Source: Prochlorococcus sp. AG-347-L02
GTDB lineage: Bacteria > Cyanobacteriota > Cyanobacteriia > PCC-6307 > Cyanobiaceae
Length of the DNA: 64,000 nucleotides
Assembly: GCA_003281255.1 (NCBI GenBank)
Contig: QCCL01000001.1
Span: 1 to 64,000, forward strand
Direction: 5' to 3'
Of the stretch, positions 34,161-36,870 are shown piece after piece. A program made the translations under genes and the position numbers. The notes below the pieces were generated by a model that did not search any database, was not told the DNA's origin, and worked only from the letters and a program-made list of their open reading frames with translations. The stretch's first letter is position 1; each line of letters starts with the position of its first letter.

Positions 34161-34745
34161 TTAACTTAAACCTATTTCTTTTTTTAAAAAAGGTGACATA
34201 ATTTTTGCAGCTTTACCTCTACTACCTAATTTATTTAGTTGTGATTGTGAGAGCTCACCGTAAACACAATTAGCTTCCTTAACCCAAAAAATAGATTCGA
34301 ACTCCCCATTAGGATATTTGGGGTTCTTAAGAATTTCTCCCCAGCATATTCCTGTTGTATCTTTAATTAAGTTTCCTGAGGGATCGCACAAAACCATACA
34401 ACTTATAAATCTTGCACTCCTATATGGACTATCAGAAAGTTCATTAATTAATTTTTTAATTTTCTCATCATTATTTTTGGCATATCGAGCAGAATAAATT
34501 CCTGGTCGACCATTTAAAACATCTACTTCAAGACCTGAGTCATCAGCTAATGCCCAAGTTTTTGTCTCTAGAGAGGCTGCCTTGGCTTTAAGTAGTGCAT
34601 TCTCAAAATATGTTTTCCCAGTTTCTTCGACATTTAAATATTCTGGTTGCTTCTCAACCTTTAAAGACAAAACATCCAGCATCTCTGAAATTTCAGATAC
34701 TTTTCTTTGATTGCCACTCGCAATAGTTAGAACTGGAAGGTTCAA
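34161..34745 (-). CDS. rdgB: dITP/XTP pyrophosphatase (HAM1/RdgB)
   Basis: 194 aa. Removes deaminated purine nucleotides (dITP, XTP) from the pool. Seen: LTIASGNQRKVSEISEML, the metal site WALADDSGLEVD with LNGRPGIYSARYA, and a C-terminal SHRGKA-like LGSRGKAAKIMSPF. A housekeeping gene set between csoS1D and csoS1; its leader (34746 upward) contains the structured element described for this region. Confidence 0.94.
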   Translation of the reverse strand: MNLPVLTIASGNQRKVSEISEMLDVLSLKVEKQPEYLNVEETGKTYFENALLKAKAASLETKTWALADDSGLEVDVLNGRPGIYSARYAKNNDEKIKKLINELSDSPYRSARFISCMVLCDPSGNLIKDTTGICWGEILKNPKYPNGEFESIFWVKEANCVYGELSQSQLNKLGSRGKAAKIMSPFLKKEIGLS

Positions 34746-34793
34746 AATAATATAAAAAATTTATTGTGAATTTTATCTTACTTCAAAGCTTGA

Positions 34794-34850
34794 TACGGAG
34801 ACAGGAAAGGTTGAACATTCCACACCTGTGTAGACAGGGCCTGTCTCGTA
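34794..34850. ncRNA. Candidate structured RNA element or sRNA upstream of csoS1
   Basis: TACGGAGACAGG (34794-34805) can pair with CCTGTCTCGTA (34840-34850) leaving one bulged base. Inside, CCTGT (34825-34829) and ACAGG (34834-34838) form a hairpin with a four-base loop. The remaining 34806-34824 is unpaired and contains TTGAACATTCCACA. The stretch 34794-34853 has 32 G/C in 60 bases, far richer than its surroundings, as is usual for structured RNA in such genomes. Strand and transcription are unknown. A rival fold is the perfect palindrome-like AGACAGG/CCTGTCT at 34832-34846. Confidence 0.4.
34811..34824. repeat. Copy 1 of the 14-base motif TTGAACATTCCACA
   Basis: Lies in the unpaired part of the structured element; an exact second copy is at 35042-35055. 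Confidence 0.8.
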
Positions 34851-35012
34851 CGGAAATAACATAATGTAAATTTTTTCTTAACACAACAGTATGTTTTGAT
34901 GCACTAACTAATTTGCATAAGTATTGACATATCAATAGTACCAAGGGTGATAAGTTAAACTTATGAATGATAGAAAAAACATTAATGGAGATTTTGTCGA
35001 AAACGCTTGACT

Positions 35013-35018
35013 TATAAG
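35013..35018 (+). promoter_or_regulatory. Possible -10 box for csoS1
   Basis: TATAAG, about 56 bases before the csoS1 ATG. If used, the leader would begin near 35025 and include the second copy of the 14-base motif. No convincing -35 at standard spacing was seen, as is common in Prochlorococcus. Weak. Confidence 0.3.
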
Positions 35019-35041
35019 TACTTAATGAAGCATTCTTCGAA

Positions 35042-35055
35042 TTGAACATTCCACA
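35042..35055 (+). repeat. Copy 2 of the 14-base motif, in the csoS1 leader
   Basis: TTGAACATTCCACA ends 18 bases before the csoS1 ATG. It is identical to 34811-34824, 231 bases upstream, in the same orientation. It could be a protein site, or the target of a minus-strand RNA from the upstream element. Confidence 0.8.
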
Positions 35056-35073
35056 TTTAGTATTTAGTAGACA

Positions 35074-35385
35074 ATGGCTACAGAAACAATGGGTATCGCT
35101 CTCGGCATGATCGAGACACGCGGACTTGTACCTGCAATCGAAGCAGCAGACGCAATGACAAAGGCAGCAGAAGTTCGCCTTATTGGTCGTGAATTCGTTG
35201 GTGGCGGTTATGTCACAGTATTAGTTAGAGGCGAAACAGGCGCAGTTAACGCAGCTGTAAGAGCTGGTGCTGATGCTTGTGAAAGAGTTGGTGACGGTTT
35301 AGTTGCAGCTCACATTATTGCTCGTCCTCATAGAGAAGTTGAACCTGCTCTAGGTAACGGTGAATTTCTTGGTCAAAAGGACTAA
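35074..35385 (+). CDS. csoS1: Major hexameric carboxysome shell protein
   Basis: 103 aa single BMC domain: GIALGMIETRGLVPAIEAAD, the pore loop region with EFVGGGYVTVLVRGETGAV, and a C-terminal HREVEPAL. Hexamers tile the shell facets; the narrow positively charged pore admits bicarbonate and RuBP. First gene of the operon, so expected to be the most abundant shell protein. In contrast to neighbouring genes, its codon use shows many C-ending codons (GGC, ATC, CGC), consistent with high expression. Confidence 0.97.
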   Translation: MATETMGIALGMIETRGLVPAIEAADAMTKAAEVRLIGREFVGGGYVTVLVRGETGAVNAAVRAGADACERVGDGLVAAHIIARPHREVEPALGNGEFLGQKD

Positions 35386-35454: not shown

Positions 35455-36870
35455 ATGAGTAAGAAGTATGACGCAGGGGTAAAGGAGTACAGAGATACCT
35501 ACTGGACTCCAGAATATGTACCCCTAGACACCGATTTACTAGCCTGTTTCAAATGTACAGGTCAGGAAGGTGTTCCAAGAGAAGAAGTTGCAGCAGCTGT
35601 TGCCGCTGAATCTTCAACAGGTACTTGGTCAACAGTTTGGTCCGAGTTACTTACAGACTTAGAATTTTATAAAGGGCGTTGTTATCGAATCGAAGACGTT
35701 CCTGGAGATCCTGAAGCTTTCTATGCTTTTATTGCATATCCTTTAGATCTTTTTGAAGAAGGCTCAATTACAAACGTATTAACATCTCTTGTAGGAAACG
35801 TTTTTGGATTTAAAGCTCTAAGACATCTACGTCTAGAAGATATTAGATTCCCAATTGCTTTCATTAAAACTTGCGGTGGCCCACCAAACGGAATCGTAGT
35901 TGAAAGAGATCGACTTAACAAATACGGAAGACCTCTACTTGGTTGTACCATCAAACCTAAATTAGGATTATCTGGTAAAAACTATGGTCGAGTTGTATAT
36001 GAATGTCTTAGAGGCGGTCTTGATTTAACGAAGGATGATGAGAATATTAATTCTCAACCATTCCAACGTTGGAGAGAAAGATTTGAGTTTGTTGCAGAAG
36101 CAGTTAAGCTTGCTCAGCGAGAAACTGGAGAAGTTAAAGGTCACTATCTAAATTGTACTGCTAACACTCCTGAAGAACTCTATGAAAGAGCTGAATTTGC
36201 AAAAGAGCTAGATATGCCAATCATCATGCATGATTATATAACTGGTGGTTTTACTGCAAATACTGGATTAGCTAATTGGTGCCGTAAAAATGGCATGCTT
36301 CTGCATATTCACAGAGCTATGCATGCTGTTATTGATAGACATCCAAAGCATGGTATTCACTTCAGAGTTCTTGCTAAATGTTTGAGACTATCTGGAGGAG
36401 ACCAATTACATACTGGAACCGTGGTTGGAAAACTAGAAGGTGATCGTCAAACAACTCTTGGTTATATTGACAACCTAAGAGAGTCATTTGTTCCTGAAGA
36501 TAGATCAAGAGGTAACTTCTTTGATCAAGATTGGGGTTCAATGCCTGGAGTATTTGCAGTCGCATCAGGTGGTATCCATGTTTGGCATATGCCTGCACTT
36601 CTAGCGATCTTTGGGGATGATTCCTGTCTTCAGTTCGGTGGAGGAACACATGGTCATCCATGGGGTTCAGCTGCTGGAGCTGCAGCTAACAGAGTTGCTT
36701 TAGAAGCTTGTGTAAAAGCCCGTAATGCTGGTCGCGAAATCGAAAAAGAGAGTAGAGACATTCTTATGGAAGCTGCTAAGCATAGTCCTGAATTAGCTAT
36801 TGCTCTAGAAACTTGGAAGGAAATTAAGTTCGAGTTTGACACTGTCGACAAGCTTGATGTTCAGGGTTAA
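35455..36870 (+). CDS. cbbL: Ribulose-1,5-bisphosphate carboxylase/oxygenase, large subunit (Form IA)
   Basis: 471 aa. Fixes CO2 in the carboxysome lumen. The carbamylated lysine is Lys193 in [13 protein letters not shown] (spinach Lys201); the active-site segment [17 protein letters not shown], loop 6 with KLEGDR, and [15 protein letters not shown] are intact. The proteobacterial-like Form IA type matches its place in a cso operon. It is followed by a hairpin and cbbS. Confidence 0.98.

Follow-up and report, generated by a model that had tools for sequence, protein, structure and literature searches.

In the 64,000-nucleotide stretch of Prochlorococcus sp. AG-347-L02 DNA analysed here (the window), a folded element between rdgB and the carboxysome gene csoS1 probably encodes an RNA that acts by base-pairing at the 5' terminus of the carboxysome mRNA. 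The structure of the element, the promoter-like geometry beside it, its complementarity to the csoS1 leader and the co-evolution of the two copies of its seed are all read directly from the sequences compared. Picocyanobacteria account for a large share of the carbon fixed in the ocean, and their transcription factors are few. In MED4, the transcription-factor set is reduced (PMC6778093). If our reading is correct, a folded RNA of ocean and freshwater picocyanobacteria could set the amount of CO2-fixing machinery, and a seed that matches the first letters of the carboxysome-Rubisco mRNA would be a direct control point for the level of the operon.

The repeat and the folded element

The original prediction had described an exact 14-base repeat with one copy in the unpaired part of a foldable element and the other shortly before the csoS1 ATG. 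The window bears this out: TTGAACATTCCACA occurs at both 34811-34824 and 35042-35055, with the downstream copy lying 18 bases 5' of the csoS1 ATG (35074). The predicted outer 11-bp stem with one bulge and inner 5-bp hairpin are likewise present, with TAC and GAGACAGG (34794-34796 and 34798-34805) pairing with CCTGTCTC and GTA (34840-34850) around the bulged G34797, and with CCTGT at 34825-34829 pairing with ACAGG at 34834-34838. The G+C count given for the element, 32/60, became 29/57 (30/60) on recounting, in a window with 32% G+C. The parts of the element are:

34794-34851, minus strand: conserved structured RNA element (anti-csoS1 RNA), which would form the initial ~58 nt of the rdgB leader (covariance model and covariation)
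34798-34847, minus strand: outer stem, 8 bp (34798-34805 with 34840-34847), plus 3 bp across the bulge (covariation)
34825-34838, minus strand: inner hairpin, 5 bp, loop of 4 (sequence and folding)
34811-34824, minus strand: seed, TGTGGAATGTTCAA, a complement of the 5' ends predicted for csoS1 and rpoD (sequence comparison)

When the 328-nt gap was shuffled with its dinucleotides preserved, a 14-base repeat arose in 3 of 2000 shuffles. The genome itself holds four exact copies of the 14-mer, none with one mismatch and none of the reversed control; two of the copies are at the csoS1 gap, one is upstream of rpoD (L004), and one is within an ABC-transporter gene (L003). Folded as a single sequence, the window element did not stand out on the plus or the minus strand (z -1.7 to -2.5). 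At the gathering score, Rfam matched tRNA alone in the whole window and no family at the element, and at a loose threshold psRNA6 reached 15.9 bits, below its cut-off of 60, with nothing relevant among the matches. An 88-aa minus-strand open frame (34783-35049) covers most of the gap and is probably spurious.

Across 49 diverse elements, the outer stem has been rewritten by paired changes (GAGACAGG/CCTGTCTC, GGGGCAGG/CCTGCCCC, GCAGCGGT/ACCGCTGC, GAAACGGT/ACCGTTTC, and others), while the loop GGTGGAATGTTCAACC is nearly invariant. Ten columns are fully invariant, eight of them inside the seed (34811-34824) and the other two within two bases of it. In an unfitted alignment of these 49 elements, 87.6% of cells were paired and 11 of 12 pairs had changed on both sides, including all eight of the outer stem; none of 500 shuffles reached any of the five measures used, and slid versions gave 59% or less. 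A model-fitted alignment (89 matches, 68 distinct sequences, with L162 and L213 being one element) had 91% of cells paired overall vs 58% or less when slid, and again none of 500 shuffles reached any of the five measures. Its outer stem was paired in 95.4% of cells, with 8/8 pairs changed on both sides (0/500 shuffles), and its inner hairpin was less conserved (81.4% of cells for four aligned pairs). RNAalifold alone recovered six outer-stem pairs. Counts of G·U vs A·C in the stem, taken in three versions (36:21, p 0.06; 11:15, p 0.56; 14:5, p 0.06), lean toward the minus strand in two of the three, none significantly.

The covariance model, of which the window element is itself a part, matches the window at 34786-34865 on the minus strand (E 1.6e-21), the sole other match in the genome having an E value of 0.11. 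At E 0.01, 198 of the 271 genomes of Cyanobiaceae contain a match, mostly one each, in a search whose strict filters may miss weak elements. A scan of named genomes gave 80 csoS1 loci, 77 of which have the element (some of these were used to build the model), in 77/77 cases on the strand opposite csoS1; the loci without it are L046, which is incomplete, L066, and L085. The window's genus (g1) is, judging by strain names, the high-light group (HL). The window 14-mer occurs in 247/266 genomes of this genus, and in 87/87 of those with a completeness of 90% or more and a contamination of 5% or less. We aligned the regions upstream of csoS1 in 43 representatives of the 80 loci; almost every one keeps both copies, the HL form being GAACATTCCACA and the usual form elsewhere GAACATTCCAYCC, and L066 and L085 are without a good upstream copy. 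CsoS1 is 100% identical in 41 named loci, all of them Prochlorococcus. GAACATTCCAYCC is found in 136 of the 271 family genomes, often paired on one strand, a count that HL, with its CACA form, mostly falls outside. Beyond the family, the model search of 146 genomes of the class gave nothing convincing; the best matches, at E 0.0014 (G560) and E 0.0032 (G470), belong to one genus; they are unlike one another, each sits within an unrelated open frame or at the end of one, and both were therefore put down to chance.

The predicted csoS1 mRNA start and its proposed pairing with the seed

Judging from the comparison of csoS1 leaders, the downstream copy is predicted to be the 5'-terminal ~14 nt of the csoS1-rbcL message. 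The features on this side of the gap are:

35007-35012, plus strand: csoS1 -35, TTGACT (leader comparison)
35031-35036, plus strand: csoS1 -10, CATTCT (leader comparison)
35042-35057, plus strand: target site, with the predicted csoS1 mRNA start at G35044 and pairing over about +1 to +14 (comparison)
35074-35385, plus strand: csoS1, carboxysome shell protein (Pfam BMC, E 1.5e-26)
35455-36870, plus strand: rbcL, Rubisco large subunit, the next gene on the same strand as csoS1 (Pfam RuBisCO_large, E 7.1e-139)
34950-34964, plus strand: dyad ATAAG-N5-CTTAT (ATAAGTTAAACTTAT), perhaps a LysR-type (RbcR) site (leader comparison)

GAAC stands at the predicted csoS1 start in 92 of 94 distinct leaders and is absent in two. 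TTGAC starts exactly 37 nt 5' of GAAC in 91 of the 92 GAAC-bearing leaders, NANNNT lies exactly 7 nt 5' of it in 91 of 92, and the csoS1 start codon follows at 26-37 nt. Farther upstream, a dyad of the form AT[AC]AG-N4-7-CTTAT is present in 79/92 distinct csoS1 upstream regions, with the window dyad centred about 87 nt before G35044. Synechocystis RbcR is described as activating from about -90 with the consensus ATTA(G/A)-N5-(C/T)TAAT (PMC13249358); since the dyad does not fit this consensus, its RbcR label is a guess.

Both copies were compared in 105 locus records (some sharing a genome), which yielded 58 distinct 24-nt pairs. With the upstream copy (copy 1) read as antisense, the uninterrupted standard pairing that begins at the predicted first nucleotide extends for a median of 14 nt (range 4-16 nt) in 27 distinct 16-nt pairs. 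Seeds and their own partners paired at 399 of 432 positions, vs 384.7±2.85 when partners were permuted, a level reached in 0/5000 permutations. With HL left out, 356/384 positions were paired vs 348.3 permuted (6/5000), and HL pairs alone were uninformative in this test. At positions 1-14, we counted 18 G·U vs 2 A·C cells. Antisense transcription of copy 1 would produce a bias in this direction; the cells share descent and so are not independent, and T-rich drift in csoS1 leaders may contribute. The same T-to-C change is found in both copies in L068 and G417, perhaps as a single event, and mismatched seed-target pairs occur in L043, L074, L075, and G347. A conserved seed that co-evolves with its target, as found here, is a mark of trans-acting base-pairing sRNAs. 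The original prediction had proposed to look among relatives for conserved stems, a conserved repeat and matched drift of the two copies, and it came through this comparison unrefuted, as the stem covaries and the copies drift together.

The computed duplex with csoS1 has an energy of -38.5 kcal/mol (1/1000 shuffles as good) and that with rpoD -37.8 kcal/mol (4/1000). Duplex energy was dropped as a target filter because it was not discriminating, the csoS1 site being second of 6381 window segments.

The GAAC kept in 92/94 distinct leaders is also kept in most genomes that lack the element, as would be expected if the shared string were a mere conserved csoS1 start sequence, with a complement that has no pairing role and a hairpin that is a cis element of rdgB. 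The csoS1 start sequence does have constraint of its own, since the leader pattern GAACATYC occurs in 225 of the 271 family genomes and 31 of these 225 (e.g. G412) are without the element at E 0.01. However, the element is found in 194/225 genomes with the pattern vs 4/46 without it (G303, G347, G370, G449), a table of unpicked genomes whose entries are not independent events because genera cluster. We also fetched the csoS1 loci of 28 genomes chosen for a missing motif, a missing element or a low score, of which 24 had no element by the model at E 0.01 or by eye, among them G362 with a weak match in place (E 0.03). GAACATTCCA is present in 55/58 distinct pairs with an upstream copy vs 5/24 element-less genomes, a contrast inflated by the picking of these 24 for a missing motif or element; the other element-less genomes differ at the csoS1 start (e.g. 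GAACCTCCCC, GAACTTCCGC, GAACATTCCCCC). Seed and target co-vary, and a second locus with the seed exists in another genus (see below), both of which argue against a start sequence without a pairing role, an explanation that we regard as very improbable. On these comparisons, some constraint on the csoS1 start sequence exists in genomes without the element, and the constraint is tight in those that have it.

The alternative named in the original prediction was a pair of protein sites around the promoter. Two sites for a DNA-binding protein would flank the csoS1 promoter and repress it by occupancy or looping, an arrangement suited to an exact repeat in the same orientation, to a spacing that for the majority of pairs (58 distinct) is 230-238 nt, and to an upstream copy that is partly dyad-symmetric (GGTnGAAnnTTCnACC, by inspection). 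However, the spacing is 257 and 292 nt in two pairs and 1617-1889 nt in seven, the left half of the dyad is not preserved at csoS1, and the seed sits in a hairpin at another locus. The covarying stem at the upstream copy and the G·U-type asymmetry between the copies also count against protein sites, which we disfavour and consider improbable.

The predicted minus-strand promoter, rdgB and other copies of the seed

Comparison of the elements points to a promoter on the minus strand of the gap, in the direction of rdgB:

34881-34886, minus strand: predicted -35 of the minus-strand promoter, TTGTGT (comparison)
34858-34863, minus strand: predicted -10 of the minus-strand promoter, TATGTT, with a 17-nt spacer and a predicted start near 34851 (comparison)
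34161-34745, minus strand: rdgB (Ham1 family), downstream of the element on the same strand (ORF of 194 aa, TTG start; Pfam Ham1p_like, E 6.8e-47), its start codon uncertain

Both gap promoters, this one and that of csoS1, were found by comparison only, and a sigma-70 scan of the gap gave no promoter reaching the cut-off. Minus-strand TAnnnT is present in 41/41 clustered elements, in 40 of them at 43-51 nt before the seed's end; the one at 73 nt is probably not a real -10. The best -35 partner (16-18 nt upstream) begins TTG in 21/41 elements, and about half of the elements have a weak -35 or none. The mean minus-strand promoter score was 6.98 vs 3.63±0.48 for mononucleotide-shuffled flanks, and 29/41 elements scored at least 7 vs an average of 12 and a maximum of 20 in 200 shuffles. 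As a control, the plus strand gave a mean score of 2.54, with no candidate in 26/41 elements and nine scoring at least 7.

The element therefore has, in silico, the promoter of its own that is characteristic of a trans-acting base-pairing sRNA. A discrete sRNA would also have its own terminator, and no intrinsic terminator-like site was detected on the minus strand between 34500 and 35300. Because the promoter stops just short of the stem, the RNA would be the start of the rdgB leader or derived from that leader, and the lack of a terminator-like site 3' of the element on this strand leads us to call it an rdgB leader or its processed product. A discrete small RNA, one of the two forms originally envisaged, would in that case come from processing of the leader. 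The element RNA is not cis-antisense and would act from the rdgB side, since the element (34786-34865) does not overlap the csoS1 transcript predicted from 35044.

In several freshwater-type genomes, sbtA and a P-II-like gene lie between rdgB and csoS1, and the two copies are 1617-1889 nt apart. The genes were called by Pfam Sbt_1 (L147) and Pfam P-II (L152); in the L147 stretch examined, Pfam gave no match for a P-II-like gene. With sbtA in between, the stem-loop copy is still about 40-130 nt from the candidate rdgB start (start codons uncertain), and because it keeps near rdgB when these genes intervene, we assign the element to the rdgB side. This position would also be compatible with a riboswitch or other cis leader of rdgB. 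As a separate observation, the position of sbtA (L147:1239-2945, L149-L153) puts a bicarbonate transporter beside the carboxysome operon in freshwater-type Cyanobiaceae.

The rpoD copy of the 14-mer in the window's own genome lies at L004:1501-1514 (C13:11360-11373), 301 nt before the start codon of rpoD, a sigma-70 gene by Pfam. In HL, a promoter-like TTGCCG-N17-TAGTAT (by inspection) directly precedes this copy, which is about 300 nt from the start codon, and the rpoD site made up 23 of 30 genus loci fetched (one per genome, first match). The ABC-transporter copy (L003) sits in coding sequence and recurs in L097 and L111. Other GAACATTCCAYCC copies in relatives, in 14 regions, were attributed to chance, several being inside open frames or away from shared genes; one of these regions (L165, G307) spans a single long open frame. 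In IMG/VR, 23 places selected by the 16-base seed scored 28.5 bits or less with the model, which is about chance by a rough estimate.

A different locus in genus g22 carries the seed, as GGAATGTTC, together with a CCTCACAC motif in 7/17 genomes:

L264-L270 (genomes G365, G368, G371, G372, G373, G376, and G379): g22 second locus, seed plus CCTCACAC

A stem of at least 8 bp surrounds the seed in four of the seven (L264, L266, L269, L270), with none in L265, and a terminator-like end is present in four (L264, L266, L268, L270). The CCTCACAC motif resembles that of Yfr1/Yfr10; Rfam searches of three of these loci did not name the locus. An eighth match, in G421, was taken as chance. At another g22 locus (L158:1486-1543, G366), the seed GGATGGAATGTTCAACC lies in a CGGTG/CACCG stem without CCTCACAC and scores 19.8 bits with the model.

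Taken together, the covarying stem, the minus-strand promoter, the matched drift with its G·U asymmetry, and the second g22 locus favour the core of the original prediction, that a minus-strand RNA pairs with the csoS1 leader. The same pairing could in principle serve the reverse direction: the 5' end or a fragment of the csoS1 mRNA would pair with the rdgB leader and control rdgB, so that carbon-fixation status would gate nucleotide house-cleaning and the structured leader would be the regulated part. Such an arrangement would agree with an element tied to rdgB rather than csoS1 when sbtA and its neighbour intervene, with a csoS1 start sequence kept in some element-less genomes, and with a csoS1 mRNA that is probably the more abundant of the two. 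However, the second seed locus of g22 and the rpoD site fit a seed acting on csoS1 and rpoD better, and we find control of rdgB by the csoS1 mRNA unlikely.

Proposed mechanism and known regulators

In the explanation that we favour, regulation of the csoS1-rbcL mRNA by the element, the promoter between the element and csoS1 would drive a minus-strand RNA. This RNA would have its 5' end at the foot of the outer stem and extend toward rdgB, either as the rdgB leader or as a short product of that leader. Outer stem and small hairpin would leave a single strand exposed (GGUGUGGAAUGUUCAACC in the window), which would pair with the 5'-terminal ~14 nt of the csoS1-rbcL mRNA; in the window's genus, it would likewise pair with the beginning of the rpoD transcript. 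Rather than block ribosomes, pairing would mainly alter how stable the mRNA is, its 5' end being covered or marked in the manner of RoxS on yflS; the 5'-end duplex could shield the mRNA from RNase J or RNase E, or it could be a substrate of RNase III. A stability effect is favoured because csoS1 and rpoD share a predicted 5' terminus and not their distance to the start codon (18 vs 287 nt). From the features described above, we infer that the RNA is transcribed, that it pairs in the cell, and that pairing has an effect, which may be of either sign; as a counterpoint, the csoS1 mRNA may outnumber the rdgB leader.

A broader, family-wide switch can be put forward tentatively and with some doubt. 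The rdgB leader would cover the start of the mRNA for carboxysome and Rubisco and, in the genus of the window, that of the rpoD mRNA. A single 14-nt seed would thereby link CO2 fixation with transcription capacity and nucleotide hygiene, while a second, differently built RNA would carry the same seed in another genus. The searched genomes supply natural variants of seed and target.

Our literature search found no description of this RNA, and dRNA-seq of MED4 and MIT9313 or surveys of ncRNAs in marine Synechococcus may already list the transcript. The former is reportedly the subject of Voigt 2014, and the latter is said to be covered by Gierga 2012. The words csoS1 and carboxysome are absent from the available part of PMC7368042 and, by text term searches, from PMC2518516 and PMC5069720. 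Axmann et al. 2005 listed, as cluster 87, a 336-base structured-RNA candidate upstream of the rbcLS cluster (Z -4.24/-3.64, two sequences), which they ascribed to a conserved promoter and marked NT, apparently not tested (PMC1242208). Cluster 87 would appear to be the same stretch as the gap that holds the element, but the antisense relation is absent from its table row (PMC1242208).

The kind of regulator proposed here is already known, and the element would be a new member. In Bacillus subtilis, the sRNA RoxS pairs with the extreme 5' end of the yflS mRNA, blocks RNase J1 and stabilises the mRNA (PMC5419742). The likeness lies in pairing at the 5' end of a target mRNA, which for the element is predicted; RoxS is a demonstrated trans-acting sRNA, whereas the element is a predicted RNA tied to the rdgB leader, and we claim no sequence relation between them. 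RNase J is encoded by a single gene in every sequenced cyanobacterium and appears essential, its role being unclear (PMC10989914), so the element would, if our reading is correct, be a case of 5'-terminus pairing in organisms where this enzyme appears essential. RblR of Synechocystis PCC 6803 is a 113-nt, fully complementary antisense RNA of rbcL (PMC5306279). Like RblR, the element is a regulatory RNA, here a candidate, for Rubisco expression in a cyanobacterium; unlike RblR, it lies off its target, and the pairing would span ~14-16 nt at the start of the operon.

The Yfr10-specific enriched targets in MED4 include the csoS1 and csoS2 mRNAs (PMC6778093), a sign that some RNA targets the csoS1 mRNA in that strain, at whichever site. 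The element shares with Yfr1/Yfr10 and Yfr2 a short conserved pairing motif, but in the window it is without CCUCACAC (by inspection) and falls below every Rfam cut-off. The g22 second locus, unlike the window element, has CCTCACAC together with the anti-csoS1 seed. Beside the g22 locus, Rfam identifies a cobalamin riboswitch and Yfr13 (L264:2751-2897 on the minus strand and L267:1769-1842 on the plus strand).
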